This document shows positions 6,999 to 48,063 of a stretch of DNA of 64,000 bases, piece after piece. Origin of the DNA: Branchipolynoe longqiensis (lineage: Eukaryota; Annelida; Polychaeta; Phyllodocida; Polynoidae); assembly GCA_030323885.1 (NCBI GenBank), contig CM059196.1:35814481-35878480 (forward strand), in the 5' to 3' direction. Made by a program: the position numbers and the translations under genes. Each line of letters begins with the position of its first letter. Positions within the stretch are counted from its first letter, which is position 1. A model generated the notes under the pieces. That model did no database searches. It was not told the origin of the DNA and was given only the letters and a program-made list of their open reading frames with translations.

Positions 6999-7797
6999 AG
7001 GCCCTGTCACACTACCACGTTTCGCACGAACGTGCTTTGACGCGTGGCGACGTGTTGCAGTTTTGGGCGAACCGTCGGTACACGTCTGGTACGTTACCGG
7101 CGCGTTACCGGCGCGTTACCGGCCCGTCGGTACATAGCAACGTGTGAATGGACACGTCGGCGCGCGTCGGGCCGCGTCGAGGTTTTGTGCTTGCACAAAA
7201 CTTTCAACGGGCCGCAACGCGCGGCAGCGTGTTGGCGGGCGCATTACGGATGCGTTAGCAACACGTCGACACCCGTTGGCAGAACGCTGGCAGGACGTTG
7301 ATCAACGTCAATTAACGTTGGCTTTTTTCCCCCCAAAATGCGAGCGTTCCGTTGGCGCGTCGGGAACGTCCCATTGATGTGTTGTGGGCGTGCCATTGGC
7401 GTTGCTCCAGCATTTCTCGGCGCGTTGGACGTGTTGCCAGCGCGCCTGGATGCATTGGCCGCGCGGTGTGGACGCGCTGTGGGCGCGTCCTAACGTGTTG
7501 CTGGCGGGTATGTACGCGTTGACACGGTACTAACACGACACCAACACGCCGACAGCGCGTCGACAGCGCGCCAACAACACGCCGATGGCACGCTGGGAAC
7601 GCGCTGGCGGGACATTTACATGCTGTTCCGCCGCGCGTCTAAGCGCGTTGGCCGCGCACTCATAGCACGCTACTAACACGCTGCGCCCCGTCAAACTTTC
7701 TCCCAAAACGCCGACGAGTTGGACGCGTGTCGACGGGTTGCAAATATTTTGCACGTTGCTGGTGCGCCGGGGGAAACGTCGTAGTGTGACAGGGCCT
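6999..7797. mobile_element. TIR element 1 (CCCTGTCACACTAC family), inserted in the satellite
   Basis: The left end is AGGCCCTGTCACACTAC and the right end is its exact reverse complement, flanked by the trinucleotide TAA at 6996-6998 and 7798-7800. The satellite continues on both sides, so the boundaries are well defined. The 799-bp interior has very high CpG and no coding capacity. It is built from degenerate ~11-bp words: seven units with a CRCG-type start begin exactly 11 bp apart from 7534 to 7600. An 18-nt palindrome with an 8-bp stem lies at 7183-7200, preceded by 'gcgtcgagg'. Terminal repeats and a 3-bp duplication suggest a non-autonomous DNA transposon, possibly Harbinger-like. Confidence 0.9.
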
Positions 7798-7800
7798 TAA

Positions 7801-7935
7801 AGGTCACTCCCAATATCAAACACAGTGAATTGACTTTGCAAAGCCATTAAATCCACACCATACATATCCCTTACATTGCAAATTACTGCAGCAAAAGCCA
7901 TTGCCTACACCCCAGGAATTCCCTTAATAAAAACT
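7801..7935. repeat. Degenerate satellite resuming after TIR element 1
   Basis: Sequences such as 'aaggtcactcccaatatc', 'ccattaaatccacacc' and 'ccattgcctacacccc' are decayed 36-bp units. Confidence 0.6.
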
Positions 7936-8115
7936 GTTGCACTAGTGCCTTGCTCATGGCTCATTGATGGAATCTACCTCAATCTACCTCGAGTTTAAGC
8001 AGGAATAATGTGTAGATAGAATTCACTAATTGACTATTCAGGGATGAAAGATCTCCATTTTGCGGGCTTCCACGATTTGTTTATATGTATCGATTAGGCC
8101 TAATGTTAAACATTT

Positions 8116-8432
8116 TGTTTGTTTATTGTTGTTTTACGTCCTATCAACATCTAAGGTCATATCAGGACGGTTACCGCCTTGTGACAGTGCGCACTCATGG
8201 CGACTTTATAGTGCTGCCCCACTGGGAGACCAGGCCGCCAGCACCATGACCTGATAACCCACTCAGTCACACTATCGTAACACTGAGCCAACCAGTCCTT
8301 GCCCTATCCTAATAATGCCGAAAGCCTGGCTAGGAAGCGATAAGTATAAATTTTTAAGTAATTGGTTTGGCTCGACCAGAGTTCGAACCCACGATCCCAC
8401 GGTCTACCAACACGGGAGACAGACGCTCTAAC
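8116..8432 (-). mobile_element. SINE-A copy, near full length
   Basis: The tail ('ttgttgttttacgtcctatc') is at the left and the tRNA-like head at the right, with 'gttcgaacccacgatc' near 8380 as the inverted B box. It has the 'cgggagacagacgctctaac' head subtype. Confidence 0.9.
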
Positions 8433-8449
8433 TCATAATGTTAAGCAGA

Positions 8450-8750
8450 ATGCTAAGGAATCGGGATGTATATGACAAAATTGGTTGGTTCGAATCCCAT
8501 TTTGATATGACCTGCGATGTTACTAGAAGATAAAACCCAAACAAGAACGAGTTAAGTATGGGCGATGATATAAGCACAATCAGGATAATTGTAACCTGAC
8601 TTCGGGAATTTTCCCCGCGATTCTTTGACAGTGTTAATCCTGAAGAAGGAAAGTCCGCGTTTTCGCGGAAATTCGCCGTTGGTGTAATAATCTTAGCTTG
8701 CTTTCCGCGTTTTTTCCCAGAGACCACTTTCATCCCCGAAGTCTATTAAA
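8450..8750. repeat. Dispersed repeat family G, copy 1
   Basis: This segment recurs, diverged, at 13104-13385. Both contain 'ttttccccgcgattc', 'gtccgcgttttcgc' or a variant, and 'gaaattcgccgt'. Part of it resembles the SINE-A tail. No coding role is apparent. Confidence 0.6.
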
Positions 8751-9767
8751 GACTTTCTCAAAGTGTAACCAAAAAAAAGAGCTACACATTAGATATACTT
8801 TGAAGACTTTCTAGAGTTCTTTTAAGACTAAGAGTAAGTGAGGTCTTCCACCTTGTAAAAATCGTAGCCATCCTGTTACTGTTAGCATCAAAAGCTTCCT
8901 CAAATCCTCAAATTATTAACATATTTATAAAGGTCATAAAGCAAAGTCATTTATGGCTTTTGGTGGATAGTTTGATAGTACAACTAACTGGTCCACGTTT
9001 TGCTTATAAACGTGGCGTTCATTGTTATTAGATTTTATTCTTTTTCAAACCTTTATAATTTACACCCTTGTCATGGAATCGGTTTTGGCGGACATACTGT
9101 ATTCTGTCCCTAAAGTTCCGCAGAGTTCAACACGTGATTTTGGCAATCTGTTAATTGTTTCTCTTCTTGTAAACAAGTAGTCTTTATATTGCTTCAATAA
9201 TGTCGGTCTACTTTCGTCCATTGCCATTCCCATTGTCTCCCTATTTAAATGTGAACCTATTTGTTGCTCCGCCTTTTTACATGTAAACTATCCCAACTCT
9301 TAACTCTGTCTGTCTACCTTTCTTCATTGTTTTTCTTTTTAGATTTGAACCTTTGTCTATTGATCCTTCTTTTATAAATTCGAACCTTTTTTCAGTGCTG
9401 CTCGTTTTTCACACCTTTTAACAAGTTTTATTAATTTAATTTTTTTTTTTTAATTTGACTAGCTGTGACTAGCGGCGACATTCTTCTCCCCACACCCCCG
9501 ATCTTCAGGCAGCTAGGTTCCCTATTATTTCTTGGGACTGGGTAGTTAAAGTGCCCGAGAATAGTCTTGACCTTTGTCCGAGTCTCCATGTCTGACGTTG
9601 TTGTAGCCGCCTGCACACTAGGGTCAGCATTCACACCCTGACCTTTCTCACACAATGTCTGCATTATCATATCTTATTTTTCCTAATAGGTCTTGCCCGG
9701 CCTCTGGCAATCACTCTTGTATTTGAGCACGTCTTATTTGTCGCCCTTATACCTTGGATATTTACTT
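8751..9767. other. No gene seen
   Basis: AT-rich sequence with T-runs near 9430-9455. A 79-codon minus-strand frame at 9431-9670 has no recognisable domain, and I do not call it. Confidence 0.4.
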
Positions 9768-9770
9768 ATA

Positions 9771-10506
9771 CCCCTGTCACACTACGACGTAACGAGCCAA
9801 CGTGAGCCTAACGTGATGATTTTTCGTCATTACGTTGCCGTACGTTGGGTTACGTTATGATGACGTCATAATGACGTTAGAGTGACGTCGAGCTACGTCA
9901 TGTTACGTCGTGTTACGTCGGCGCGCGTCGAGGTTTTGAACCTGTTCAAAACTTTCGACGTATCTCGACGTGAAGCCGTTACGTCGGGATGACGTGACAA
10001 TGACGTTAGGTAGACGTTCCGCGATCGTTATAGCAGCGTAAATGACGTTAGAGTCACGTTATGTCACGTCAGACCGACGGCCCGGGTGGGAGCAACGTGT
10101 GGGCAGCGTTTTGCACGTTACGGTCACGTTACGGTCACGTTACGGTCACGTTACGGTCACGTTACGGTCACGTTACGGTCACGTTACGGTCACGTTACGG
10201 TCACGTTACGGTCACGTTACGGTCACGTTACGGTCACGTTACGGTGGCGTTACGGTCACGTTACGTCCACGTCGCACCCGTTACGGCGACGTTACGCTCA
10301 CGTTACACTAACGCCCGGTCACGTCGCCAATTACCCCTCCCCCCTAACGTTGTCACGTTACAGCTAAGGTCACGACGTACACCGACGTTACTTTCACGTT
10401 ACGCTCACGTCCACAATTTGCATATTACGCCCATAACGTCGACGTAATATAATTATTTTCACGTTCTGCCTACGCTGACGTAGTCACGTCGTAGTGTGAC
10501 AGGGCC
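9771..10506. mobile_element. TIR element 2 (CCCTGTCACACTAC family)
   Basis: The ends are CCCCTGTCACACTACGACG (left) and the inverse of GGCCCTGTCACACTACGACG (right). ATA flanks both sides at 9768-9770 and 10507-10509. The interior is built of ACGT words, phased at 10 or 11 bp from 9832 to 9915, and includes a perfect 11-bp tandem array. The hairpin at 9934-9951 occupies the same place as in element 1, again preceded by 'gcgtcgagg' and followed by 'ctttc', but with different stem bases. No transposase is encoded. Confidence 0.88.
10114..10245. repeat. 11-bp tandem array, 12 near-identical units, inside TIR element 2
   Basis: The unit is cacgttacggt. Because 11 is not a multiple of 3, all plus frames read the same 11-residue repeat, so the open frames here are not genes. 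Confidence 0.95.
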
Positions 10507-10509
10507 ATA

Positions 10510-12052
10510 ACTAACTCGACCATTTTAGATTTTTTTTTCTGAGTTTTATATTTCAAAATATTTTCTTTTTGGTAATATAGTTTTATTCTTTTGAATATTC
10601 TTTTCTCAATGTGGAAACAGTTGTCTTCCTGAAATGAACAATTACAACCAAATAAGTATATGACAGTGAGTGATAGATGTAGTAGAATATGACATCTGGG
10701 TATAATACACACAGGTGAACCCAATGAATGATATTGATTTAATTTAAAAAATAGATGGAAGGACAATTAAACATCACAATACCACAGGGATTGATGCAGA
10801 GCCTAGCTTTCTGATCACTACTCCTCTGTTGATTATCGCTGGCAACACGCATCATCATACTCCACTGATGCCGTGTATGGGTTGTTAATAGCATGATTAT
10901 TTGTGCCTACCGTACACATTTCATATTAATTTTGATGGTTTTTTACTAACTTTGGTCACTTCGACCAGAGTGGCATCCATTTTGAGTCACGTAACCACGA
11001 GTCTTGTTTTACTCCGTCATTAGATAGCACCACCAATATGGTTTACTGTATAATGGTACAAATTGATTCCACCAGATGGCTCCACTATATTGAAATGAGA
11101 CCGTGAATGAGTCCGGAATGTAGCAGAGAATGTAAATATATACACGTTCTCTGAATATAGTCGGAGACAATAAGTATATGAAGAGCTCTTTTCCAAAACG
11201 CGATAAGCGCCGATCAAAACAATTAGTTTGCAATGTCAATTCCAATCGTAGATCGTGTTTTGGAAAAGAGGCATTAGGCCCCTAAATAATATTCGTATAA
11301 TACATTATATTCCACAATAATGTGCCAATGATGAACATATATATTTTCGCACTGTATTATCATTTCCATAATCGAGTCATCCGTATATTGTACCAATGAC
11401 TCCTACATTTCATTACACATGTCCAGAATTCATATGATTTTTTATTTGATGTTGTTGCTAAATATGTTATTCATCTGAGTACCTATTTTGTCAGTGCCGA
11501 AGCATTGGTCTTCCAGCCTATTCGATAGACGAGATCACGGTTCCGACTGCTCATGCGCTGAAAACGGCGTTGGCAGCAAAGCAAATGCGCATGGCCATTG
11601 AGTTTGTCGATACGCGTAGGGCAAAACTTTGATTTTATTCAAAATGAATAGAAATACATAACAATTTGGCATAAACATGTATGCACACATGCAATATAAT
11701 GATCTGATGAATATAGCTAAGACAAAACTAGCCATAGTTAAACAATTTGAGCTAAGAAACATACAATTCCACACAAAACAATCAGTGATACTGATATCCA
11801 CATCACCATTATTAATTCTTGTTCTAAATATTAAAATGCCAAATGTGTCAACATACACATGTTTCAGAGAAATATATAATGAATATCTGATTAACCCTAC
11901 TCATTTTCTAGTTCTACTTATGTCATTAATAAAATGAAAAAATGTCATTCATAAAATAAGTAAAACTGACTCTGGCTATGGCTCTAACACTAGTCTGAGT
12001 GCCCAGATTTGTCTAAATCTAAATGGATATGGCATAAGATATGCTGATTATA
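10510..12052. other. No gene seen; one family E fragment
   Basis: AT-rich, mostly unique sequence. At 11459-11521 is a fragment of dispersed repeat family E ('gtcagtgccgaagcattgg' then 'tcttccagcc'), also found near 39040, 42310, 45930 and 55230. Open frames at 11009-11245 and 11535-11937 lack recognisable domains. Confidence 0.45.
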
Positions 12053-14759: not shown

Positions 14760-17700
14760 GTGCATCACCCCCACTCCCCCTCCCCACTGCCACTCCCCAC
14801 TCCCTCCCCACTCCCCTCTCCACTCCCTCTTCCCACTCCCTTTCCCCACTCCCCCTCCCCACTGCCTCCCGACTCCCCTCTCCACTCCCCCTCACCACTC
14901 CCCATCCCCACTGCCCATCCCACTCCCCTCCCCAATCCCCATCCCACTCCCCTCCCCACACCCCTCTCCACTCCCCCATCCCACTCCCCCTCCCCACTCC
15001 CCTCCCCACCCCCCCCACCCCCCTCCCACTCCCCTCCCCACTTCCCCATCCCCACTTCCCCTCCCCACTCCCCTTCCCCACTCCCCTCCCCATTGACTCC
15101 CCTCCCCACTCCCCCGCCCCACTCCCCTCTCCACCCCACTCCCCCTTCCCCACTCCCCTCCCCACTCTTCCCCTCCCCACTCTCCCTCCCCACTCCCTTC
15201 CCCACTCCCCTCCCCACTACTCCCCCTCCCCACTTCCCCCTCCCCCCACTCCCCCCCTCCCCACTCCCCTCCCCACTCCCCCCCCTCTCCTCCCCACTCC
15301 ACCCATCCCCTTCCCCGCTCCCCACTCCAATTCCCCTCCTATCCCCTCCCCACATCTCCCCTTCCCACTCCTCCCCCTCCCACCTCCCTCCCCCACTCCC
15401 CTCCCCACTCCCCCTCCCCCCTCCCCTCCCCACTCCCCCTCCCCCACTCCCCTCCCCCACTCCCCTCCCCACTCCCCCACCCCACTCCCCCCTCTCCACT
15501 CCCCCTCCCCTCCCCCCCCCCCACTCCCCTCCCCACTTCCCCTCTCCACTCCCCTTCCCACTCCCCCTCCCCACATCCCCCCTCCCCACTCCCCTCCCCA
15601 CTCCCCTCCCATCTCCCTTCCCCACTCCCCCTCCCCACTCCCCCTCCTCCCCTCCCCCTCCCCCCTCCACCCTCCCCACTCCCCCACCCCACTCTCCCCC
15701 TCTCCACTCCCCTCACCCCCCTCCACTTCCCCCTTCCACTCCCCCTCTCCACCCCCCTCCCCACTCCCCTCCCTCCCCACTGTCCCCCTCCCCCATCCCC
15801 TCCCCACTCTCCCCTCTCCACTCCCCACCTCTCCCCACTCCCCTCCTCTCCCCTCCTACTCTCCCACTATCCCCTTTCCACTCCCCCTCCCCACTGCCCC
15901 TCCCACTCCCCTCCCCACTTCCCCCTCCCCACTCCCCCTCCCCACTCCTCCCCTCTCCACTCCCCGCACCCCTCTCCCACTCTCCACTCCTCTCCCCTTC
16001 TCCCCTCCCCCCCTCTCCCACTCCTCCTCCCCTCTCTCCACTCCATCTTTCCACTCCCCTCTACCCTCTCCTTTCCACTCCTCTCCTCCCTCCCCCACAA
16101 CCCCCTCTCCCTCCCCCTCTCCACTCCCCCTCCCTCCCCCCTTCTCCTCACTCACCCTGCACTCCCTCACTCACCCTATCCACTCTCTCCTATCCGCTTC
16201 CCCCTTCCCCACTCCCCTCTCCACTCCCCCTCTTCCCACTCCCCTCTCCACTCCCCTCCCCACTCCCCTCCCACTCCCCCCTCCCCTCTCCCCTCTCCAC
16301 TCCACCCTCTCTCCATCCCCTCTCTCCATCCCCTCTCCACTCCCCCTCACCCCCATCCCCACTCCCCCCCCCTCTCCACTTGCCCCTCCCGACTTCCCCT
16401 TTGCATGCCCTCTCCATCCCCCTCTACCACTTCCCCTTCCCACTCCCCATCACCAATTCCCCTATCCACTCCCCTCCCCCACTATCGCTCTCCACTCACC
16501 CCCTCCCCACTCCCCTGTCACTACCCCCACCCCACCCCTCCCTCTTTCCCCCACCCCACTCCCCTCTCCTCCCCCCTCCCTCCCCTCCCCACTCTCACCT
16601 TCCCCACTCCCCACCATCCACTCCCCCCTCTCGTCCCCACTCCCCTCCCCACTCCCCTCCCCACTCCCCTCCCCACTCCCCCTCCCCACTCCCCTCCCCA
16701 CTCCCCTCTCCACTCGCCCTCCCCCTCGCCACTCTCCCCCTCCCACTTCCCACTCCCTCACCCCCCTCCCCCACTCTCCCCTCCCCACTCCCCCACCCCA
16801 CCTCCCCTCTCCAGTCCCCCTCCCCTCCTCCCACTCCCCTCCCCACTCCTCCCCCTCCCCACTCTCCCCCTCCCCACTCCCCCTCCCTCCATCCCTTATC
16901 CCCACTCCCCTCTCCCCCACTCCGTCCCCCCTCTCCCCACTTCCCTCCCCCACTCCCCCTCTCCACTACTCCCTCTCCCACTCCCCTCCCCACTTTCACC
17001 CCCCACTCCCCTCTCCACTCCATCTCCCCACTCACTCTCCCTCTCCCCTTCTCCACCTTAAACCTCTCCATCCCATCTTTTCTTCCCTCTTCTCCACTCC
17101 CCTCTTCCGCTCTTCCTTTCCACTCCCCTCTCCACTACCCCACCCCTCTCACCCCCCTCCCTTCTCTTACCCATCTTCCTCTCCCTCTCTCCTCTCCCCC
17201 TCTCCACACCCCCTCCCCACTCCCCCTTCGTCTCCCCTTTCCACTCCCCCCTCCCCCATTCCCCTCTCACTCCCCTCTCCAATCCCCTCTCTCAACTCCC
17301 CTCCCCCTGTGCCGCCCTCCACTCTAACTCCCCCTCCCTCCTCCCCTCCACCACTCCCCCTCTCCAATTCCCCTCTCCACTCTACCTTCCCCCGCCACTC
17401 CACCACTCCCCTCCCCCTCCCACCCATTCTCCACTCTAGTCCCCCCTCTCCACTTCTAGCCCCCCCCCCCACTCTCCCCCCTCCCCACCTCCCCCTCCCC
17501 CACAACTCCCCTGTCCACTCCCCTCATCCACATCCCTCTCTTCCCACACTCCTCTCCACTCTCCCCCTCTCCACTCCCCCCCTCCACTCCACACCCCCTC
17601 TCCACTCCCCCTTCACTTCCACTCTCCCCATCCCCTCTCCACTCCCCCTCCCCACTCCCCCTTTCGCACTTCCCCCTCTCCACTCCCCCCTCCCCTCTCC

Positions 17701-20700
17701 ACTCTCCCTCCCCTCTCCACTCCCCCTCCGCCACTCCCTCACCTCCTCCCCCTTCGCACTCCCCCTCCCCTCTCCACTTTTCCCTCCCTCTCCATTCCCC
17801 TCCCCCCCCACCCCCCCTCTCCACTTCCCCTTCCCCACTTCCCCTCCCCACTCTCACTCTGTCCTTCCCCTCTCCACTTCCCCTCCCCCTTCTCCACGTC
17901 CCCACTCCCCTCTCCACTCCTCGCCCCTCTCCACTCCCCCGCCCCTCCTTACCACTGCCCCTCCCATCCCGCTCTCCCCAATCCCCGTTCCACTTCCCCC
18001 TCGGCCACTCCCCTCCACCACTCCCCCTACCCCGCTCCCCCTCTCCACTCCCCCTCCCTCCCCACTCCACTCCCATTTCCCCTCCCCACCCCCTCCCCAC
18101 TCCCCTCTCCACTCCCCCCCTCTCCACTCCCCCCCTCTCCCCTTCCCCTCCCCACTCTCCCCCCTCCCCACTCCCCTCCTCACTCCCCTCCCCACTCCCC
18201 TCTCCCACTCCCCCCTCTCCACTCCCCCCCCCTCCACTCCCCTCTCCACTCCCCTCTCTCCAATCCCCTCTCCTCCCACTTCCCCCTCCCCCACTCCCCA
18301 CTCCTTCCACTCCCCCTCCTCCCCCCTCCCCACTCCCCACTCCAGTTCCCCCCTCTCCTCCCCACTCCCCCTTCCCCACTCCCCTCCCCCACTTCTCCCC
18401 TCCCCACTCCCCCACCCCACTCTCCCCTCCCCCACTCCCCTCCCCACTCTCCTCCCCACTCCTTTTCCCACTCCCCACTCCCCTCCCCACTCCCTACCCA
18501 CTCCCCCACCCCACTCCCCCTCCCACTCCCCCCTCTCCTCTCCACCCCCTTCGTCCACTTCTCCCCCTCCCCCCACTACCCCCTCCCTACTACCCCCCTC
18601 CCCCCATCCCCTCCCCACTCCCCACTCCCCTCTCCCACTCCCCTCTTCCCTCCCTCTCCCCACTACCCCACCATCCCACTCCGTCCCCCTCACCACTGCC
18701 CTGCCCCCATCCCCTTCCCCACTGCCCCCCTCCCCCCCTCCCCCTCCCCCACTCCCCTCTCCACTCCCCCACCCCACACCCACTCTTAACACTCCCCCAC
18801 TCCACTCCCCTCTCTTCCACTTCACCTCTCCACTCTTCTCCTCTCCCCACTCTCCCTTTCCACTCCCCTCTTCCACTACCACCTCCCCACTCCCCCTCTC
18901 CACTCCCCCTCTCCACTCCCACCTCCCCACATCCCTCCTCATCCACATCCCCTCTCCTCTCCCCTCTCCACATCTCCCCCCCCTTCCCCACTCCCCTCTC
19001 CACTCCCCCTCTTCCACTCTCCTCCCACACACTCCCCTCCCCACTGCCCCCTCCCCACTCCCCCTCCCCCACTCCCCCTCTCCACTCCCACTCTCCACTC
19101 CCCTCCCCCCACTCCCCCTCTCCACTACCCCCTCACCCACTCCCCTCTCGCACTCCCCTCTCCACACCCCCTCCCGCACTCCCCTCTCCACTCCCCCCTC
19201 TCCACACCCCTCTTCCACTCCCCTCCCCACTCCCCCTGTCCAATCCCCTCCCCACACTCCCCTCCCCTCCTAATGGCGGCCCTCTCCAATCCCCACTCCA
19301 CCTCTCCCTCCCCACTCCCCTCCCCCTCCCCAGTCCTCCACTCTAGTCCCCCTCTCCACTCCCCCTCCCCACTCCCTCTCCCAACTCCCCCTCCCCACTC
19401 CCTGTCCACCTCCCCTCATCCACTTCCCCCTCTCCACTCTCCTTTCCCTCCCCTTTCTTGCCACCGCCCTTCCCTCCCACTCTCCCCATCCCCTCTCCAC
19501 TCCCCCCTCTCCACTCCACCTTTGCACTCCCCCTCTCCATTTCCCCCTCCCCTCTTCCACTCCCCCCCTCTCCACTCCCCCTCTCACTCCCCCCCCCTCC
19601 CCCTCTCCACTCCCCCTCCCCTCTCCACCTCCCCTCCCCTCTCCACTCCCCCTTCCCCTCCCCACTCCTCCCCTCCCCTCTCCACTCCCCCCCTTCCACT
19701 CCCCCTCCCCACTCTCCCCCCACTCCTTCCCCCTCTCCACTCCCCCTCCCCCACTCCCCCCCTCCCCCCTCCACCCCCCTCTCCACTCCCCTCCCCCACC
19801 CCCCCTCCCTCCACTCCCCTCCTCCCCACTCCCCTCTTCCACTCCCCCTTCCACATCCCCATCTCCAACTCCCCCTTCCTCCCCTCTCCACTCCCCTCCT
19901 CCCACTCCCCCTCCCCACTCCCCCCTCCCCCCCCCTCTCACACTCCCCCTCTCCACTCCCCCTCCCCCACTCCCCTCCCCAACTCCCCTCTCCACACTCC
20001 CCCTCTCCACTCCCCGTCTCCAATCCCCCCTCCCCACTCCCCTCCCCACTCCCCCCTCCCCGCTCCCCCTCTCCACTCCCCCTCCTCTCCCCCTTTCCCC
20101 CCCACTCCCTCTCCCCCCCCACTCCCCACCCTTCCCCACTCCCCCCTCCCCTCCCCTCTCCACTCCCCCACTCCCCCTCCTCCTCCTCTCCACTCCCCCT
20201 CCCCACTCCTCCCCACTCCCCTCTCCACTCCCATCTCTCCCCACTCCTCCCCCTCTTTCATTCACTCCCCCCTCCCCACTCCCTCCCCATTCCCCTCCCC
20301 ACTCCCCTCTCCACTTCCCCCTTCCCCACCTCCCCTCCACTCCCCCTCTCCAATCCCCTCTCCACTCCCCCATGCCCACTCCCCACTCCACTCCCCCTCC
20401 CCACTCTCCCCCTCTCCACTCCATTCCCCCTCTCCCACTCACCCCTCCCCACTCCCTCTCCCCACACCCCCTCCCCACTTTCCTTCCCCTCTCCACTCCC
20501 CTCTCCACTCTCCTTTTCCACTCTCCTTCTCCACTCCCCTCTCCTCCACTCCCCCTCCCCCATCTCCCTCCACTCCCCCCTCCACTCCTCCTCCCCACTC
20601 CCCCTCTCCACTCACTCCCCCTCCCCCCACTCCACTCCCCCTCCCCTCTCCACTTTCCCTCCCTCTCCACTCCCCCCTCCCCTCTCCTTACTCCCCCTCC

Positions 20701-21770
20701 CCACTCCTCCCCCCTCTCCACTACCCCCCCACCCCACCTCCCCTCTCCACTCCCCCTCTCCACACTCCCCCTCCCCACTCCCCACTCCCCTCTTCCACTC
20801 CCCCTCCCCACTCTCCCCCCTCGCCCCCCACTCTCCCCTCTCCACTCTCCTCGCCCATCCCCCTCCCCCTCCCCTTCCCCACTCCCCCTCTGCCACTCCC
20901 CTTCCTTCCCCCTCTCCACTCCCCCTCTCCACTCCCCTCTCTCCACTTCCCCCCTCCTCACTCCCCTCCCCCACCTCCCACTCCCCCACTCCCCTCTCCA
21001 CTCCCCTCTCCACTCCCCCCTCCCCCACTCCCCCTCCCCACTCCCCCTCTTCCACTCCCCCTCTCCACTCTCCCCGTCTCCACTCCCCCTCCCCCATCTC
21101 CCCCTCCCCTCTCCCCCTCCCCCCCTCGCTCCCTCCCCTCTCCATCTCCCCCCTCTCCACCCCCCTCCCCACTCCTCCCTCCCCACTCCCCTCCCCACTT
21201 CCCCTCCCACTCGTCCACTCCCCCCTCCCCTCTCCCCCTCCCCCTCTCCATCCCCACTTCCCTACTTAGTTCCACTACCCCTCCCATCATCTTTCCACTC
21301 TCCCCCTCTCCACTCCCCCTCCCACTCCCCGTCCCTCCCTCTCCATTCCCCTCTCTACTCCCCCTCCACCCCGACTTCCCCCTCCCCTCCTACTCTCCTC
21401 CCCCTCTACTCCCCCTCCCCCCTTCACCACTCCCCGTCTCTACTCCCCCTCTCTACTCCCCTCCCCCTCCTCCCCACTCCCCCCTCCCCTGTCCACCCTC
21501 TCCACCTCCCCTTCTCCACTCCCCCTCTCCATCCCCCTTCCCTCTTACACTCCCTCCCCTCCCCTCTCTCCACTCCTTCCTCCTCCCCATCTTAACTCCA
21601 CGTTCCCCCTCCCCCTCTCCACTCCCTGTCCATTCCCCCTTTCCCCTCTCCACTTCCCCACTCATTCCCCCTCCCCACTCCCCCTCCCCCCCCTACCCCA
21701 CCCCCCTCTCTCCCCCCTCTCCCTCCCCTCTCCCCCCATTCCTCCCCGCTCCCCTACCTCGCTTCAGGTT
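14760..21770. repeat. 7-kb degenerate pyrimidine satellite (CACTCCCCTCCC type)
   Basis: For about 7 kb the plus strand is built from variants of a 12-bp word, cactcccctccc, with 10-13-bp length variants and almost no G. The many frames of up to 869 codons on the plus strand (Pro/Ser/Leu/His) and the Gly/Glu/Arg/Trp frames on the minus strand follow from the absence of stop words. They are not genes. The minus strand has dense GGGG runs, so G-quadruplex or triplex formation is plausible. It lies inside the 22-kb intron of the PKD-like gene. Confidence 0.95.
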
Positions 21771-26152: not shown

Positions 26153-27369
26153 CCTCATCATCATCATCATGCTATCGCTCGCCAGACTGCTTTCATTACT
26201 TGACTGTCACTCTCCATTTAGCTCTCTGCTGAGAGAGTGATGTCCATGAGTCGGTCTTAATGTCTCTCAGCTTCAGGTTTCTCTTGATGGTATCCTTGAA
26301 CCGGAGACGAGGGCGCCCTCTCTTTCTGTAACCAGAAGACAGTTGAGAGTAGAGGATCTGCTTTGGTAGCCTGTCTGATGACATCCTCATGAGGTGTCCA
26401 GTCCACCGGAGATTCTTTTTGATCAGAAGATCTTCCATAGAGGGCAGCCCTGTCCATTCAAGTATTTCCTTATTTGTCACTTTGTCCATCCAGGTTAACC
26501 TCATGATCGAACACAGATGTCGCATCATGAAGGCATGCAGCTTTTTCACCTGTCGTCTGTACACTGTCCAGGCCTCGGCTCCGTATAGTAGGGTGGATAG
26601 CATGATTGCATGGTAGATCTTGCCTTTGACCCGCATGGACACATGGTGGTTGTTCCAGAGTCCCTGGCATAGTGGGCCGAAAGATGCGCTAGCCTTGGCC
26701 CTCCTCTGTATTTCAGCATCAATGCATCCATCACTTGATATAGTGCTTCCGAGGTAGGTGAATTCCGGAACAGAGTTCAGCTTGTTTCTGTCAACCAAGA
26801 TATCCTCCTCTCGGGTTCTTGTAGAGTTGGGTTGGTACAGCACCTCCGTCTTCTTGATGTTAATCTTCAGGCCTAACATCTTTGATGCATCGGAGAAAGC
26901 GTCCACTATTTTCTGTATCTCTTCAGCAGAGTGGGCAACCAGTGCACTGTCATCTGCGAATAGCAGCTCTCTCACCAGTATCTGAGTAGTCTTGGTCTTC
27001 GCTCTGAAGTGTGCAATGTTGAATAGGTCAGTGCTCTGTCTGGACTGTATTTTGATGCCATCCCCCATGCCTCGGAAAGCCTCGTCGAGCATTGCTGATA
27101 GGAAAATGGAGAAGAGCATGGGGGCCAGTACACAACCTTGCTTGACCCCATTGGTAACTCCGAACGATTCCAAGACTTCCCCTCCAACACTAACATTCGC
27201 CATCATTCCCGTATGTAGAGCCTCGATCATAGTTGTGAACTTCTCTGGGCATCCATACTTCCTCAGTAGCTGCCATAGCCCGGTCCTCCCGATTGTACCG
27301 AACGCCTTAGTGAAATCGACAAATACCATGTACAGTGGTCGGTCCTGCTCAATGCACTTTTCTTGTAAT
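26153..27369 (-). mobile_element. 5'-truncated non-LTR retrotransposon (LINE), RTE/I-type
   Basis: A minus-strand LINE. Its coding part starts mid reverse transcriptase (27369 downwards) and it ends in a (CAT)n tract at about 26153-26172, which is the 3' tail (ATG)n in its own orientation. The endonuclease and 5' UTR are missing, as expected for incomplete target-primed reverse transcription. Related 3' ends occur at 12064-12194, 61005-61070 and 61893-62440, so this family seeded several insertions here. Confidence 0.9.
26196..27329 (-). pseudogene. Reverse transcriptase C-terminal half of the LINE
   Basis: The frame is uninterrupted for 377 codons. It has RT motif A (VDFTKAF), the B region (NGVKQGCVLAPMLF), the catalytic box LLFADDSAL near residue 122, then SDASKMLGLKINIKKTE, LLYGAEAWT and a basic tail with KKRGRP-like 'YRKRGRPRLRFKD'. 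The Asp usual in 'AFD' after motif A is Gly here. The chosen ATG is internal; coding similarity continues upstream to about 27369, so the true start is lost. The tail layout suits RTE/I-like LINEs, but I cannot fix the clade. Lack of stops suggests a fairly young copy. Confidence 0.9.
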
Positions 27370-27591
27370 AATAATTTCTGCCTAAAAAGATATATACAAT
27401 GGCTAACATCACCACCACTTATATAGTAATAACGGAAACATCACAACGACACTCCCCTCTCCGTGATCTTTATGGGAAGTGGTGTGAACATGATGACAGT
27501 CACTTCGCCAAGCAGTCACCGATCATGCCTGCTAAAAAAAAACCACTAAAAAACTACTTTCTAGTGAAACATCCCATTTCTGCACCACAGC

Positions 27592-29591: not shown

Positions 29592-31137
29592 ATGGCAAGA
29601 ATGATGTCGGCAGACGACCCGAGCACGCTGATATCGAATGTGGGTCAGAGCGAGAGTGACTCCGAGTCGGTGGACACCCGCATCAAGGCCAAATGAAAAA
29701 AGATGGCCGAAGCGAAGCCAAAAACCAGCGCAAAAATGACTGAGACAGGTCAAGGCCACGTTCAAAATCTGCCTGAGGAGGAAGACAGAAATGAGTTCAA
29801 GAAAATGTATCTGGAACTACTGAGCATGAAAAGGGAGTCATAGCAAGCCAAAGAGGAGAGAGAGAGGATGAGAGAGGAGACTCGTGCGTGGCGGGAAGCA
29901 AGAGCAGATGAGGAAGACAATGGGGCCTATGTAGGTCAAGATGGCGGGGCAGCATGGCAAGACGAGGACAACAGCGAGGAGGACAACAGCGAAATAGAAT
30001 CCATTGCCTCCCTAAATATGGCAGACCAACTGAAAGCCATAAAAACAAGATTCGCGGCAAGTGCCACAATGCCAGCTAGGCCGAACAAAGTGACAGTGTC
30101 ACCGTTCAGCAGCTTCAAGGCGCCCACAAAACCCAAGCAGGCAGACACGCCGGTAGTGAAAGAAAAGGCTACCGAGTCGGCAGCGGAAACAACCTCAAAG
30201 CCAAAGAGTAGAGAATACAAGCTAGATACGGGCTTGGCAGAGGGGGCACTCCTGAAATTCCTACAGGAAGACTACAAAAAGCTTAAGAAGCCAGTAGCGG
30301 CGCTCATAACAATAAGCGAAAGCATGGCAGGAATCATCCATCACTACTATGAGGGAGGTGAAGGTGGAGCCAAGCCGCTGAAAACACTCTGAGAAATCTC
30401 ACGGCAGTATACAGGACTGGCAGATGTGCCAGACGCAAGAGTGCAGGCCCTGAATGAAGAGATCAGGTTTGCAGAGGGAAGGAGAGAGGGTGAGAGCTCA
30501 CTCCTCACGTCCACAAAAGGGGTGGTAGGAGCATTAACGGCCATTGCACCGTTAATGGACATCATACTCCAGCATGGCGAGGCCGACCCTGAGCTGAATG
30601 AGCAGGCATTGCATATGCTAAATGCAATTAGAATGCTGGTGAATACACACGCCCAAATGAGAGTGGATTGCAAGAATAGCATGGGCAAGGTGGTAAGCTC
30701 CCAACTGGGGAAGGAGCTCATCAACGAAAAAACGGGATGTCTATGGAGACCGGCCAGAAGCGACCAAATTCCTGCTAGGCGACAACTTAGCAGAGCGCAA
30801 CAAGCAACTGATGAAATGAGTTCGAGCATCCGAGAGCTGCATGAATGGAAGTTCAGGCTACAAAGGCAAGAGACGCCACGACTACGGGAACAACACCCGG
30901 GGTGGCAGCTATGGCGGTAACTCATCATACAACAAGTTCTGTGGCAACCGCCGAGCGAGAGGCCAGGGCAGCGGGAATTCATCGTGGGGAGCGCGACCAC
31001 AACCCACGGAAAAGAAGTTTGGCAGATCCAATGAGGATTACGCACAATACGGCAACACGCTGAACAGCAACTGTGGTAGGGGAAACCACAACAACAACAA
31101 CAGCAACTCCAACCGCAGAGGGGCTTTTCAGAAGTGA
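29592..31137 (+). pseudogene. DIRS Gag-like protein, broken
   Basis: From ATG 29592 one frame runs to about 30840 with stops at 29694 (TGA), 29841 (TAG) and 30390 (TGA), then shifts frame and continues to 31137. It begins acidic ('SESDSESVD'), has an EERERMREE-type charged segment, and a central region with 'FLQEDYKKLKKPVAAL' and 'GVVGALTAIAPLMD'. The C-terminal tail is rich in Asn/Gly/Arg ('NSNSNRRGAF'), as in many nucleic-acid-binding Gag tails. All three stops could come from single C-to-T changes, two at CGA. The DIRS Gag assignment rests mainly on position, since the protein itself has no universal motif. Confidence 0.8.
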
Positions 31138-32804
31138 GCCACCCTGTCCAGGTGGGTGACTCATCAGCATTAAGACCTGGTAAGCTGACAAGATTACTTT
31201 TTGACATTAATACCAGACATGACATAAATAAAACATTTGTGGCAGGTAACATAGTAAATTACTTCAACAATTGGCGAAAGTTAACGAGTGATAATTGGAT
31301 ATTGGACTGTGTGAAAGGTATAACAATCCTGTTCGTGGTTACTCCGATACAGGAAAGGGAAACACACGCGTTTAGAATGGACAAGCGGGAAAAGGAATTT
31401 GTAAACAAAGAGGTTACTTCGCTTCTAGAAAAGCAAGTGTTAAAGGTAGTGAGGGATATGCCAGACCAGTGGATATCAAACATTTTTCTCAGACCTAAGC
31501 CAAATGGCAAATCCCGAATGATACTGGATTTGACCGAGTTAAACAAACGCATACAATATGAACACTTTAAAATGCTTAATCTCAAAACGGCCCTAGACTT
31601 GCTAGAGCCAGGTATGTGGATGGCTAGCGCTGATCTAACAGATGCGTACTACTCAGTACCCATCAATAAAAATCAGAGGAGGTTCCTCAGGTTCCGATTC
31701 GGAAACCGACTACTCGAGTACCAAGTATTACCAAATGGGTTATCACCAGGGCCCATAATTTTCACGAAACTTCTAAAGCCTATATACTCAGAATGGGCAG
31801 AAATGGGACACATGGGGTTCCCCTACCTAGACGACAGTTTCGTGTTAAATAAAACAAAAGCAAGTGCCAAGAAGCTATAACAGAACTAACAAACAGTTTC
31901 ATGAAATTAGGGTTAAAAATGTACGATGAAAATTCAGTACTAATGCCCGTGCAGTGCATAACATTCCTAGGGTTCGACATTGACTCAGTGGGGATGTGGG
32001 TCTCCCTCACAGAGGATAAAAAGGATAAAATATTATTGGTAATATATGAAATAAAAGGGGCTCAACAGGGCAAACTGTCAATAAGACAAGTGGCAGGGCT
32101 AATAGGGCAAATGGTGGCCTATGCCCCAGCGGTAGAATACGGAGGTATACACTTCAAAAGCTTAGAAAGGGACAAAATTAAAGCTCTGAAGAGAAGTAAG
32201 GGTAACTTCGAAAAGAGAATGTGGATTTCAGACAGAGGTTATGCAGACATAACATGGTGGGAAGTGAACCTAAATAACAAACAGGAAATTAGGAGAAAAG
32301 AGCCAGACATGGAATTATTCACTGATACTTCACATCAGGGATGGGGAGCTCATACAGAGACAGCTCAGACGGTAGGCAGATGGCACCAGGACGAGCTGGC
32401 ACACATTAATGTCCAGAAAATTCAAGGATCATTTGGAATGGAACCTAAGTAACAACATTTTCGAAGAAGTATGTAAACATTGGGGGTCACCACAGGTAGA
32501 CATGTTCACATCCAGGTTAAATGCTAAATTAGCGATTTACGTAAGCTGGGAGCCAGAACCCAATAATTGGAGAACAGACGCGTTCTAGATGAACTGGTCA
32601 GGCATGTTCATTTATTGCTTTCCCCCATTCAGCCTACTCCCCAGGGTCATGAGAAAGATACGAGACGAGGCATCAGCGATAGTGGTGGCTCCGCATTGGC
32701 CAGCACAACCGTGGTTTCCACTTCTCCAAGAAGAAGCGCTAGAGAGGATCGAGTTCCCAAAAGAAGAGGGGAACCTTGTTGGAGCCAGCCACCTGCAAAT
32801 ATAG
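31134..32804 (+). pseudogene. DIRS reverse transcriptase / RNase H, frameshifted
   Basis: The frame from ATG 31134 overlaps the end of Gag by four bases. It carries 'YFNNWRKLTSDNWIL' (typical of DIRS RTs), 'RMILDLTELNK', motif A 'ADLTDAYYSV', 'LPNGLSPGP' and the catalytic box 'FPYLDDSF'. A frameshift in the A-rich run near 31850-31865 moves the frame to one read from 31862 to 32452. That one has 'FLGFDIDS' and the RNase H start 'ELFTDTSHQGWGAH'. The expected second half of RNase H is absent near 32440. A third frame (32459-32804) holds the conserved DIRS C-terminal part ('GSPQVDMFTSRLN', 'FPPFSLLP', 'VVAPHWPAQPW'), with a stop at 32586. The C-terminal part has been described as methyltransferase-like in DIRS elements. 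Confidence 0.88.
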
Positions 32805-33679
32805 CCCGCACTGCGAGTGATCGCAGAATCAAGATTAACGGTGTATCGATTTTAGCGAGAACGTTAGACAGGTTTGATATTGACAAGAAAACACTACAAT
32901 ACTTTACCCACACGTGGAGACCATCCACACGTAAAAACTACCAGACCCATATTAACAGATGGGCACTGTGGGTGCTAGAGCAGGGGGTGAGTGTAATGGA
33001 CCCACCAATAGCAAAGGTGTTAAAATATCTACGAGTATACTTTGAGACTGGAGTTGGATATGGCGTGATAAATGCAGCGCGATGTGCATTAAGCATGATT
33101 TTGCCGAGGATAAATGGTAGCACAATAGGTGGACATTTCTTAATCAAATGGTTATGTAAGAGACTGTTAAAACACAACCAACTGGGGCAACCCCTAGACT
33201 CTGTGCGCTTCTATGAATATAGAAGCAATTGTAAGTTATGTGGTTATGTGTAGTAAGAGCACTGAAAAGATACATTATCAGAACAGACAAAATAAGGAAA
33301 GACACGCAGCCGCTGCTAATTTCCTTCATCGGGCCACATGGGCCAATCTCAAGGGCCACGCTGGCCAGGTGGACACTAAAGGTCCTAGAATTGTCAGGGG
33401 TAGACACCACAAAATACAAAGGATATATATAGTACATGAGGGGCATCTGCCTCCTCAGCAAAAACACTAGGTGCGAGCCTAAACGCAGTCATGAGGAATG
33501 CGTCGTGGCGAGACAGCGCAAGCTTTGCAAAATTCTACCATAAAACATTGGAAGACCCCAGGCGAGGTGCAGAGACTGATACTGAGCAGGTCAAACGTGT
33601 AAAAATAAAACAAAATAAAGAAGTATTCGGCAAACTTGTGAATTTATTAATTTGGTTAAACAAGAAGGCATATAAGTGA
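32567..33679 (+). pseudogene. DIRS tyrosine recombinase, inactivated
   Basis: This overlaps the end of the RT frame in another frame, as usual for DIRS. The N-terminal core-binding region is visible ('RPSTRKNYQTHINRWALWVL', 'CALSMILPRI'). After 33210 the frame changes and the conserved region containing the first catalytic Arg is not found, which I read as an internal deletion. The C-terminal catalytic half continues at about 33259-33430 ('PLLISFIGPHGPIS') and 33425-33679, with the Tyr-box 'FAKFYHKTL'. At the HxxR box the copy has Tyr in place of His (codon 33428) and a TGA in place of Arg (33437-33439). The enzyme cannot be active. Confidence 0.85.
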
Positions 33680-41706: not shown

Positions 41707-42300
41707 GTATTCTAAAGGCCATCCTTGCCCTGACCCTTGTACATACATATATATATATAAATGTTCTCAAATGCACTACACAGCCCTGCACGCTGATCCC
41801 CTTCCTGCCCCTACCCCACCCCTACTACACCTTCTTTCAAAACCTATTACCTAACATTTTCCTTTAAATTGACATAAAACCTGTCTGATGTAAGTCCCCA
41901 CTGCAATCTCAGACCTCAATCCCATCATTAGGCCACACAGAACGGAACACTTGTGATGGGATTAAAAAATGGGCAGGTTTCCGCATTTGGTATTGGTGAT
42001 TGGATCCACTGATTTGCATATTTACAATATAATATATATATGTGTATTGGAGATATGTTATATCTTTTTGAAAAAAGAAGAGAGAAAGCAAAGGAAGAAA
42101 GAAGTGTTTAAAGACAATTCTAGAGTCATCTTGTACATTTATTGATGCATGCTCACCAAGTGCATAATACATATGTTGAACTGGAATTGCATGCAGTTAC
42201 TATTACGACGAATAGTCAATTTATATTATGCTTCTATTATCGAACAGGTTTTTCATGTGGTTATTATTGCAACTGATATTGTCATTTATGTACCAACAAA
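41707..42300. other. No gene seen
   Basis: LINE 3' flank and AT-rich unique DNA. Short TA and GA runs occur at 41745-41760 and 42068-42100. Confidence 0.4.
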
Positions 42301-45734: not shown

Positions 45735-45915
45735 TGGGGGGGGTGATGAAAATGGGAAATATTGCGCCTAGAGCGGGACTCAAACCCACATCTTTTTGCA
45801 TTCCGGGCCAGTGTGCTAACCATTACACCACCTAGGCTCCCTGATATCAACACACTACCCACGCCTACCTGTCTATGCGGCTCCTTGCCTGAGAGGTCAA
45901 TGCAGATCACTATAT
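45735..45915 (-). mobile_element. SINE-C copy
   Basis: 'tgatgaaaatgggaaatatt' then 'agcgggactcaaacccacat' gives the inverted B box, and 'gtgctaaccattacaccacc' the inverted A box region. A poly-G run lies just before it. Confidence 0.85.
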
Positions 45916-45924
45916 TTTCATATA

Positions 45925-46100
45925 TAGCTTTTGTCAGTGCCATAACACTCATCTTGACCGTAAGTGTTACAGGTATTTAGGTACTTACACACATTGATTT
46001 ACATGGTTTATGTAGTAAATTGAAGTGTGAAGTCGATTCTAAAATTAAAGTGTACACAATGCAATAAGTAATGAGTATGAGGTACATTAAATCATGTTAA
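45925..46100 (+). repeat. Dispersed repeat family E, long copy
   Basis: Closely matches 55218-55400, sharing 'aagtgttacaggtat' and 'gagtatgaggtacattaaat'. I cannot assign it to a known class. Confidence 0.75.
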
Positions 46101-46202
46101 TCGAATATAAATGACGGATACACAATGTTGGGAGGATGTGTCTGAGACTGAGCACTTGTTGGTGTTGGCATAGTGGGTTAATTGAGCAAATGGATGTCAC
46201 GG

Positions 46203-46378
46203 GGGGGTGATGAAAATGGGAAATATTCCGCATAGAGCAGCAATCGAACCCACATCTCTTGCATTCCGAGCCAGTGTGCTAACCATTACACCACATACTC
46301 TCCCTGATGTCATCACCCTATCCATGCCCAACTATCTGTGTGGCTCCTTGCTTGAGAGGTCACCGTAGACTACTACAT
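46203..46378 (-). mobile_element. SINE-C copy
   Basis: 'gatgaaaatgggaaatattc', 'gcaatcgaacccacatctct' and 'gtgtgctaaccattacacca' match the family. The segment 46379-46640 has no recognisable feature. Confidence 0.85.
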
Positions 46379-46644
46379 AAGGTTCGATTTGCTGTGGATC
46401 AGTACTGCGGTAGCACCACCAATGGGTTATTCGCTCACTAGCCGAACCATCAGCGTTCTGCACTTCGCTTTGAAAATAACGAATATGACCATCAGACTAT
46501 TGTCTATTCCCACCTATGCTGGATAGTTCTGTTGTACTACAGTTTATTGCGATTGTAGCGCCACCTACGGCAGCATACCACACCATAACCAACCATTCCA
46601 CTTCCTTCTTTGCCGCTGACAAACATTATATATATATACATATA

Positions 46645-47456
46645 CAGTAAAACCTCCATAACCGACCACCTCCACAGACGCTGCGTCTCTATTGGTTGAA
46701 GTGAATGGCATAAAGCTAACATTCCTTATAAGCGGTATGCGGCATGCGGCATGCGAATGTCATATATGCGGCAAAGATATATGCCAACCCTCAACATTTG
46801 TTGGGATTTTTCCTCCAAATTTGTGAAGGAACAGTATTGTTTTCTATGGCAAACGCAACAGTATTCGCATTTGCATGTTGGTCTGTTGGTCTGTTCCACC
46901 TCATATAGTTCATTAAAACAATTTTTGTTAATTAATTCTTTCATCTATTTTATATTATTATATGATTTTGAGCTTTGAAAAATTCATAAGTGTCTATTGA
47001 CACATAACTGATTGTATGCTTTTGCATTATATGTAAAGGCGATGGTTGAATAAAAACAAGCAATTCTCACCGTGAATATGGCCTATGCTGCCGACACGGC
47101 GTAAAGAAACTACCACTCAATCAATCAAATCCTTTTTATCTTTGCCTGTATTGTTTTCCTCATAGCCCACGTACACAGCCGCAGATCCGAGCATTAGATT
47201 CTACCAACTGGTGACCACGACGATTGTTAACACATGGTGTTAATTTGACTAGTAGAAACTTGCTGGGCTGATGCTTGTCTGCTGCGCTGTGTAGGTAATG
47301 TTTTTTCTTCTATTTTTTAAAACTCTATAGCGATCACTTTATTTGGGTCCCAACAATACTATTGTAACCATATTTTAACTCGCTGAACCGACCACCTCCC
47401 TAAATGAACCAATTAGAGTCGGTCCCAAGGTCGGTCGATTTAGAGAGGTTTTACTG
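46645..47456. mobile_element. pogo/Tigger-like non-autonomous DNA transposon
   Basis: The ends TACAGTAAAACCTC (46643-46656) and its inverse GAGGTTTTACTGTA (47445-47458) form short TIRs with TA duplications. CAGT-start ends with AAAACCTC are typical of pogo/Tigger relatives. The 812-bp interior has no intact transposase, and a family B tail is nested at 47005-47130. Confidence 0.75.
47005..47130 (+). mobile_element. SINE/MITE family B tail, nested
   Basis: 'gtgaatatggcctatgctgc', 'cgacacggcgtaaag' and a CAATCAATCAA tail match 22045-22180. Confidence 0.65.
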
Positions 47457-47710
47457 TATATATATATATATATACATATTAAGATAGATATACAGAAAGA
47501 GCCTGCGACTCTCTAATTACAGAATATTGCTTATTTAGGGGAGTGTTTTCTTTACGTCGCCACAGGAAATTATCAGGAAGTACTGTTCTGAATTCGCTAC
47601 TCATGGAAGTAATTGTTATATGTGCCTGCGGATGCCAGTATTTATATAGCCAGGCTAAGACACCAGTTTCCTCGATATCGAACTAAAAGACATTAAAGTC
47701 CGTTATGTAG

Positions 47711-48063
47711 CTGTCACACTACGACGACTAGGCCGGCGACAGTCCAACGACTTGTCGTTTTGCTCTGTCGTTGGCTGTCGTCGATTGTCGCTAAGGTGTC
47801 GCTATGCTGTCGTTCGCGTGTCGCCGCGACACCTCCGCGACACCTCCGCGACACCTCCAGTTTCTCCACTGTCGCCCGCTTGTCGTTGGGTTTTTGGACA
47901 TGTTGAAAACCTCGACGACAGCCGGCGACAGACGCTGTCGCTGCGCTGTCGCGGCGCTGTCGCGGCGCTGTCGCGGCGCTTGGCCCGAATTTGCATATGT
48001 CGTCGGGTTTTCACAAAATCCATGTCGCTGGGCTGTCGTCGCCGCTTGTCGTCGTAGTGTGAC
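47711..48063. mobile_element. TIR element 3 (CTGTCACACTACGACG family), cut by an assembly gap
   Basis: The left end CTGTCACACTACGACGAC is inverted at 48048-48063, where the gap starts. The interior is made of TGTCG words phased at 10 or 11 bp (47766, 47776, 47786, 47797, 47808, 47819) and of CGACACCTC and GCTGTCGCG units at 11-bp spacing. The hairpin-like core at 47892-47909 is the reverse-complement counterpart of that in elements 1 and 2, so this copy lies in the other orientation. No protein is encoded. Confidence 0.85.

Follow-up and report, generated by a model that had tools for sequence, protein, structure and literature searches.

The window, a stretch of 64,000 nucleotides from the scale worm Branchipolynoe longqiensis, contains three elements (E1, E2 and E3) which are probably non-coding, cut-and-paste Tourist-like MITEs with interiors of 10/11-bp tandem repeats, in which the unit length is inherited and the repeated word is replaced by local expansions. 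Directly observed are the terminal repeats, the T-W-A flanks, a filled site with two empty counterparts, a palindromic core in most sampled copies and a strongest lag of 11 bp in each sampled interior cluster.

Structure of the window elements

The features of the three elements are as follows.

6999..7797, no strand: E1, a family I element with RCGY words and a length of 799 bp, framed by flanking TAA copies; from ends, lag-11 autocorrelation and alignments
6996..6998, no strand: TAA flanking E1 on the left, with the right-hand copy at 7798-7800; read directly
7181..7201, + strand: palindromic core GGTTTTGTGCTTGCACAAAAC of E1
7534..7610, + strand: run of CRCG-type units in E1, seven in all and spaced by exactly 11 bp
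9769..10507, no strand: E2 (subfamily IIb, ACGT words), full tips TACCC...GGCCA
9766..9768, no strand: left flanking TTA of E2; its right counterpart, TAA at 10508-10510, has an unlike middle base
9932..9952, + strand: palindromic core GGTTTTGAACCTGTTCAAAAC of E2, with a hairpin fold
10114..10306, + strand: recent 11-bp array CACGTTACGGT in E2, about 17.7 copies (Tandem Repeats Finder)
47706..48063, no strand: E3, built of TCGY words and with TGTAG as its tip; the right tip is missing at an N gap; relatives at loci L129 and L192-L194
47703..47705, no strand: left flanking TTA of E3
47890..47910, + strand: palindromic core GTTTTTGGACATGTTGAAAAC of E3
47824..47858, + strand: 11-bp array CCGCGACACCT in E3, 3.2 copies (Tandem Repeats Finder)
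47933..47980, + strand: 11-bp array CGCTGTCGCGG in E3, 4.4 copies (Tandem Repeats Finder)

The common ends claimed by the original prediction are present, with CTGTCACACTAC and its reverse complement at 7004/7781, 9774/10491 and 47711/48054; the leading CC is absent from the E3 end. The right end of E3 abuts a gap of 499 N (48064-48562). Ungapped inverted repeats at the ends of the window elements measure only 19-32 nt. No reading frame of at least 130 aa is found in E1, the reading frames of E2 and E3 pass through repeats, and that of E3 had no protein match at E <= 0.01 among 169 candidates; none of the three elements codes for a transposase. The window also holds a LINE reading frame with 1457 protein matches, nearly all of them unnamed among the 120 matches listed.

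The periodicity of the elements is strong. The lag-11 autocorrelation of bases reaches z values of 7.3, 13.0 and 6.6 in E1, E2 and E3, and the excess of CpG pairs at the same lag 4.8, 10.3 and 5.3. A chain of CG at 10/11-bp steps beats all 300 Markov resamplings in E1 and E2 and 299 of 300 in E3, while in the right piece of E2 (10307-10506) it is not significant, 49-61 of 300 resamplings reaching its score. The runs that had been described can be read in the sequence: CRCG at exactly 11 bp from 7534 to 7600 in E1, ACGT at 10 or 11 bp in E2 (from 9831) and TGTCG at 10 or 11 bp in E3 (from 47767). The word does vary by element, as the base 5' of CG is unlike among the three (chi-square p 2.9e-13).

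The idea that each element is filled with a CpG word holds for the period, which stands above shuffled sequence, but all bases are periodic and some 11-bp units contain no CG. The lag-11 repeat excess of bases outside CpG and of CpG itself is 0.19 and 0.17, 0.21 and 0.19, and 0.26 and 0.30 in the three elements. CpG as the driver of the period is not supported, since the other bases repeat equally; CG comes third among the 16 dinucleotides at lag 11, on a par with AC, GT and TA, and CpGs decay. At lattice places without CG, the window elements show no excess of TG/CA.

The family in the genome

The host genome, 1.85 Gb in size, has 22,624 exact copies of the end (11,281 + 11,343; reversed control 0) and 3,029 of the E3-type end, so that conserved inverted ends are combined with a high copy number, as in MITEs. 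For the analysis of the interiors we used 60 complete elements (33 and 24 from two batches, plus the three of the window), a non-random sample consisting of the first listed places on contig C1 and a set picked because an uncommon base follows the end. The first batch had 38 end pairs, of which L097.2, L107.1, L115.1, L122.1 and L123.1 were excluded, with L118, L119 and L124 pairless; the second had 26 pairs, of which L132 and L140 were excluded, with L129, L134, L141 and L153 lacking a second end. Two thirds of the 60 elements are 560-720 bp long.

Copies were collected by their ends, their interiors clustered and their autocorrelation compared with shuffles, as had been suggested. The strongest repeat lag is 11 or 10 bp in 56 of the 60 elements, against 18 of 300 shuffles, and lag 11 is the strongest in all eight interior clusters. 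A flank control used 60 pieces taken at the outer edges of the loci; 7 of them peak at 10/11 bp, which is still twice the shuffle rate; this control replaced an earlier flank set (21 of 90), some pieces of which possibly lay inside elements. The sampled copies are periodic and cannot be reduced to a single consensus, and therefore neither outcome that would speak against the original prediction, copies lacking the period or interiors all fitting one consensus, was seen in the 60-element sample. Three long E3-type copies fetched later (L192-L194) do not peak at 10/11 bp, bringing the total to 56 of 63, and their large middles are simple repeats of other periods.

It had been stated that the interiors do not align. 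This is true among E1, E2 and E3 outside one shared palindromic core of about 35 bp, their sole alignable interior, but E1 aligns over its length with L108, L112, L109, L102 and L111 (75.3-85.9%), and E2 with L101 (96.7%) and L097 (87.2%). The core is found with at most 3 substitutions in 47 of the 60 elements (2 of 180 shuffles), and in E2 it folds as a hairpin that no shuffle equals in stability. A homology between E1 and E2 outside the core was dropped: none of 200 Markov controls reached it, but unit-permuted lattices did so in 26, 82 and 45 of 300. The view that spacing is kept while the word changes is thus supported, except that the word is inherited by subfamily and not remade in each copy; judged from these alignments, the repeat word is a subfamily trait.

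Viral or prokaryotic relatives were also considered. The end pattern in 20 viral and 59 prokaryotic stretches looks like chance matching; of these 79, a loose second end within 3 kb occurs only in L016, L017 and L041 (CpG observed/expected near the end 0.90, 0.90 and 0.56).

Relationship to PIF/Harbinger elements

The T-W-A flanks, the empty sites and the mPing-like tip together point to PIF/Harbinger-type (Tourist-like) MITEs. In 51 of 59 copies the flanks read T.A on both sides. The filled site at L166 reads TTA...TAA and its empty counterparts at L167 and L173 read TAA once; empty-site scores for E1 discriminate weakly between a TAA join (61), GGCC (60) and an 8-bp model (58). Compared by eye, the tip TGGCC/AGGCC followed by CTGTCACAC resembles the GGCCAGTCACAATGG of mPing, and the end sequence is PIF/Harbinger-like. 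The middle bases of the two TNA copies are equal in 27 of 51 cases, where 22.8 would be expected if they were independent; with about half unequal, this is unlike a plain 3-bp duplication. A piggyBac/TTAA MITE was rejected, as the flanks are T-W-A five bases outside CTGTCAC and not TTAA beside CCYT ends.

DDE_Tnp_4 genes are present in the genome (all 150 of the candidates that were scored; a first look gave 5154). An autonomous partner with these ends was not found among 30 transposase loci and the outer flanks of two more. At the 30 loci every exact end belongs to a whole copy nearby, a complete element lying beside the transposase at L166 and L178; at L172 and L175 a 38-bp remnant of an end separates two reading frames. 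The 3.8-kb end pair of L107 was rejected as an autonomous candidate because it is mostly simple repeat, and by eye neither L107 nor L194 has a reading frame resembling a transposase.

Similar elements are known from other organisms. Like mPing/Ping and other Tourist-like MITEs, the family has T-W-A flanks, a tip of the form GGCC-(n)-GTCACA, a high copy number and non-coding short elements, whereas an 11-bp repeat interior is not mentioned in the consulted parts of these reports (PMC2836001, PMC9921582, PMC4561436), and about half of the copies here have flanks with differing middle bases. A close case is MtPH-A6-4 of Medicago truncatula, where, according to the sections consulted, variable-number tandem repeats lie between PIF/Harbinger ends, in extreme cases fill nearly the whole interior and are accompanied by a 3-bp target duplication (PMC2213677). 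Those repeats have a 60-bp unit with a triplicated 12-bp motif and belong to one subfamily; here the units are 10/11 bp, at least eight interior clusters have their own words, and end counts are far higher. The statement that no described family has this design therefore needs restriction: PIF/Harbinger elements filled with tandem repeats are published (PMC2213677), but a 10/11-bp version was not found in the literature searched, among the matches listed. Foldback elements and Tetris/Galileo are likewise non-autonomous and contain tandem repeats through which transposase sites can be added, but in the portions consulted these repeats form part of long terminal inverted repeats, and the duplications of Tetris measure 8-10 bp (PMC4079207), in contrast to the short end repeats and T-W-A flanks seen here. 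Coral CMITEs are also a MITE group with a conserved internal region common to several families; they are described in the excerpt consulted as piggyBac-like with TTAA (PMC2872659), whereas our elements have T-W-A flanks and share a palindrome of about 21 bp.

Origin of the arrays

The repeated birth of 11-bp arrays inside one frame, one of the two origins proposed, agrees with our results: array positions differ between subfamilies, all eight clusters have 11 as their strongest lag, and the likeness of adjacent units exceeds that in permuted order (0, 1 and 4 of 2000 permutations equal it in E1, E2 and E3). That neighbouring units are the most alike indicates tandem duplication. The elements would most likely be mobilised by a PIF/Harbinger-type transposase. 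Slippage or unequal repair may lengthen the arrays, as when an excision gap is refilled from the sister copy; gap repair has been linked to the repeat-filled Medicago elements in the part of that study consulted (PMC2213677). Since slipping in register is possible only at whole units, the unit length would be inherited. Words would be replaced by point changes followed by new local expansions, each subfamily's word would spread through transposition, and after insertion copies would decay without protection of the word. Our guess is that the earliest repeats served to bind a protein of the element itself. Counting against this explanation are the failure to find a transposase gene with these ends at the 30 loci and in the two further outer flanks, and the three long E3-type elements, all off 10/11 bp. 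Inherited register alone also leaves the many 10-bp runs beside zero 12-bp runs unexplained.

Those runs bear on an alternative with a modest chance of being correct, that the interior is a docking array with one site per helical turn for an element-encoded protein, each subfamily's word following the specificity of its own protein. One protein site per turn would tolerate only 10/11-bp spacing, and PIF/Harbinger elements have a separate Myb-like ORF1 protein. Cluster-weighted local repeat runs number 24.5 at 11 bp, 7.5 at 10, 0.1 at 9 and 0 at 12, and Tandem Repeats Finder gives 16.95, 10.15, 0.69 and none, respectively. Several of the 10-bp runs sit directly ahead of the core and could go back to a single old event. 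The short-range best period is 10.10-10.55 in all eight clusters, beyond at least 98 of 100 nulls in seven, but at lags of 51-120 bp phase is kept at no more than 5 of 100 nulls in only three of the eight. A long-range 10.6-bp phase was reached by none of 500 sets of jittered positions in E1 or E2; under step permutation, that of E1 is reached by just 2 of 1000 (all CG) or 12 of 1000 (RCGY), but that of E2 by 86 of 1000. We dropped this phase as a claim, as permuted steps largely account for it and it is mostly gone beyond 50 bp across clusters. An element's own subterminal words are enriched in its interior in E2 and E3 (k=6, z 2.5 and 3.7) but not in E1 (z -0.7). From the literature, as far as the consulted parts go, we count in favour that the ORF1 Myb-like protein is required for mPing (PMC2836001) and that Galileo tandem repeats bear extra transposase sites (PMC4079207). 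Against a docking array, CG repeats no better than AC, GT or TA, and the bulk middles of L192-L194 have other periods. For the suggestion of one motif per helical turn, the local repeats, nearly all of 10/11 bp, speak in favour, and the weak long-range phase and the long E3-type middles against. Selection for helical spacing is possible. It seems rather unlikely that the interiors are regulatory arrays, one protein site to each helical turn, in which selection holds the 10/11-bp spacing in every subfamily and the site sequence changes along with the DNA-binding specificity of each subfamily's own mobilising protein, giving a set of lock-and-key arrays within a single genome.

A spacing driven from one face of the helix, by CpG methylation or by the positioning of nucleosomes, is very unlikely. 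CpG observed/expected is 1.53, 2.03 and 1.53 in E1, E2 and E3 against 0.62 in window DNA outside big arrays, and an effect of GC and nucleosomes on mPing mobility has been proposed in the part of the report consulted (PMC9921582). However, the A/T-dinucleotide signal half a turn from CG is absent in E1 and E3, the A/T-dinucleotide peak of E2 adjoins the word, and units without CG stay at 11 bp. Family II CpGs are moreover lost faster than expected (retention 0.794 against 0.873; 243 of 310 losses to TG/CA), with family I at 0.871 against 0.832. A foldback element whose interior is one long imperfect hairpin, with arm pairing preserving the words, is highly improbable: single strands of E1, E3 and E2 do fold better than dinucleotide shuffles (z -8.8, -9.8 and -5.2) and E1 and E3 beat unit-permuted versions (reached by 0 of 60 and 1 of 200), but E2 folds worse than all 60 of its unit-permuted versions, permutations keeping six-unit blocks reach E3 in 54 of 200 and E1 in 2 of 60, and the short end repeats are not the long inverted repeats holding arrays that mark Foldback elements.

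Significance

One genome offers at least eight natural variants of one frame that retain the spacing of the internal repeats but differ in their sequence. Should the spacing be functional, these variants would be a direct readout of joint change in a transposon protein and its internal sites. If it is not, they would show clearly how the length of a repeat unit can outlast the unit's sequence, with transposition having distributed it over very many small arrays. That the middle bases of the T-N-A flanks are unequal is a separate clue to the insertion mechanism of PIF/Harbinger-type elements.

Element family and subfamilies

The three window elements, E1, E2 and E3, belong to a family of MITEs (short non-autonomous TIR transposons) that is real, abundant and unusual. 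As the original prediction held, they share matching inverted ends and each favours a different CpG word, mostly RCGY in E1 (family I), ACGT in E2 (subfamily IIb) and TCGY in E3. Their CpG observed/expected ratios are 1.53, 2.03 and 1.53, against 0.62 in the CpG-poor surroundings.

Features of the window
5564-7003: 36/72-bp minisatellite; the E1 insertion lies at its edge
6999-7797: E1, inverted ends matching E2 and E3
9766-9768 and 10508-10510: T-N-A flank copies of E2, middle base differing
9769-10507: E2 including full tips, inverted ends matching E1 and E3
14769-21737: C-rich CCCCACT-type repeat, about 7 kb, extreme GC skew
26196-27440, minus strand: LINE-like reverse transcriptase frame (PF00078 in its relatives)
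29844-33253, plus strand: frames resembling a DIRS-type retroelement, judged by eye
47706-48063: E3, inverted ends matching E1 and E2, right tip missing (assembly gap)
48566-53299, after the N gap: 25/31-bp GTGGTG-type repeat, about 4.7 kb

In the 1.85 Gb genome the end pattern CCTGTCACACTACNACG has 11,281 + 11,343 exact occurrences (reversed control 0), and the E3-type end 1,509 + 1,520. We sampled 60 complete elements: the three of the window, those at the top of the list for contig C1, and a group in which an uncommon base follows the end. Their interiors form 8 clusters. The claim that interiors do not align fails within subfamilies, since E1 aligns over its length with five other copies (75.3-85.9%) and E2 with two (87.2 and 96.7%); E3 has relatives at loci L129 and L192-L194. 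Across subfamilies, what can be recognised as shared is the ends, a palindromic core, and a GCCGARAAGTT island that three of the groups have. From these alignments, the word is a property of the subfamily and the arrays are passed on with the element.

The core, GGTTTTGnnCnTGnnCAAAAC, was found, allowing up to 3 substitutions, in 47/60 elements (shuffles 2/180), mostly 130-200 bp from one end; at that threshold one cluster (L127 and five relatives) and two single elements have none. The island lies near the other end in 49/60 (shuffles 9/180), counted with a loose pattern that also accepts weak matches. The core's arms vary and stay matched (GTGC/GCAC, GAAC/GTTC, GGAC/GTCC), suggesting a dyad-symmetric site or a hairpin. 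As single strands, the window cores of E2 and E3 fold better than their shuffled versions, that of E1 weakly so. The sequence ATTTGCAT, an octamer-like motif, recurs near the right end in most copies of family II as well as in E2 (10416-10423) and E3 (47989-47996). Further occurrences lie directly outside E1, at 6985, and elsewhere in the window, at 42012 and 46869.

Repeat period and origin of the arrays

The predicted 10-11 bp repetition is evident in each window element, with lag-11 base autocorrelation z values of 7.3, 13.0 and 6.6 (E1, E2, E3) and CG chains at 10/11 steps that outscore 300/300 Markov resamplings in E1 and E2 and 299/300 in E3; the exception is the right piece of E2, whose chain score taken alone is unremarkable against such resamplings. 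Among the 60 elements, collected by their ends, the strongest repeat lag in the range 6-35 is 11 for 50 of them and 10 for 6 (the other four peak at 20, 20, 21 and 27), and the cluster-averaged peak is 11 in 8/8 clusters. Controls peak at 10 or 11 in 18/300 shuffles, 7/60 flanking sequences and 3/49 pieces of other window DNA. In the long E3-type elements L192-L194 (839, 1176 and 2601 bp) the strongest lag is not 10/11 in 3/3, because their middle is a (GTGTCT)n-like simple repeat; the outer parts retain the core and 11-bp runs. Their layout is a left arm with 11-bp repeats and core, the large middle, absent from E3, and a right end.

Adjacent units resemble each other more closely than permuted ones do (reached by 0, 1 and 4 of 2000 permutations in E1, E2 and E3), and bases outside CpG repeat at lag 11 about as well as CpG. 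CG ranks third of the 16 dinucleotides across clusters, level with GT, AC and TA. Array positions vary between subfamilies and some units have no CG. The arrays therefore arise by tandem duplication, and we attribute the 11-bp unit length to an inherited register. Cluster-weighted local runs number 24.5 at 11 bp, 7.5 at 10, 1.0 at 6, 0.1 at 9 and 0 at 12; other thresholds and Tandem Repeats Finder (0.69 at 9 bp) concur that nearly all are 10 or 11 bp. That 12-bp runs are absent where 10-bp ones are plentiful is the clearest hint that a helical constraint may act on spacing. However, some of the 10-bp runs lie directly before the core in several subfamilies and may reflect one old event, and most clusters lack significant phase beyond 50 bp. 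Half a turn away from the CG, neither E1 nor E3 shows an A/T signal.

Once inserted, copies decay. In family II the retained fraction of consensus CpGs is 0.794 against 0.873 expected from other bases, with 243/310 losses to TG or CA; the corresponding values are 0.871 and 0.832 for family I, 0.951 and 0.972 for IIb, and 0.927 and 0.922 for III.

Target sites and mobilisation

T.A stands on both sides, five bases outside CTGTCAC, in 51/59 elements, and is frequently preceded by C (21/35) and followed by G (16/35). The two copies agree in the middle base in just 27/51 and differ in 24/51, about chance level. The L166 element (about 2688-3222) has TTA on its left and TAA on its right, and its empty counterparts L167 and L173 read TAA within CCTAA. 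E1 flanks join best at TAA within the minisatellite, by a slight margin (61 vs 60 and 58). mPing, a Tourist-like MITE, has been studied in yeast with unequal middle bases (PMC4561436), and the accessible part of that work describes no natural copies of this kind.

Together with the mPing-like tip, the T.A flanks and empty sites fit PIF/Harbinger-type mobilisation. Transposases with the DDE_Tnp_4 domain are plentiful in the genome, and 0 of the 30 such loci examined had a transposase gene with these ends as its own. Loci L172 and L175, whose copies are 99% identical, hold a 38-bp family-I-type end remnant (2277-2314) between two Harbinger-type transposase reading frames.

Tandem-repeat-filled PIF/Harbinger elements are already known as a kind from Medicago (PMC2213677). 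What is new here is another variant of such elements.
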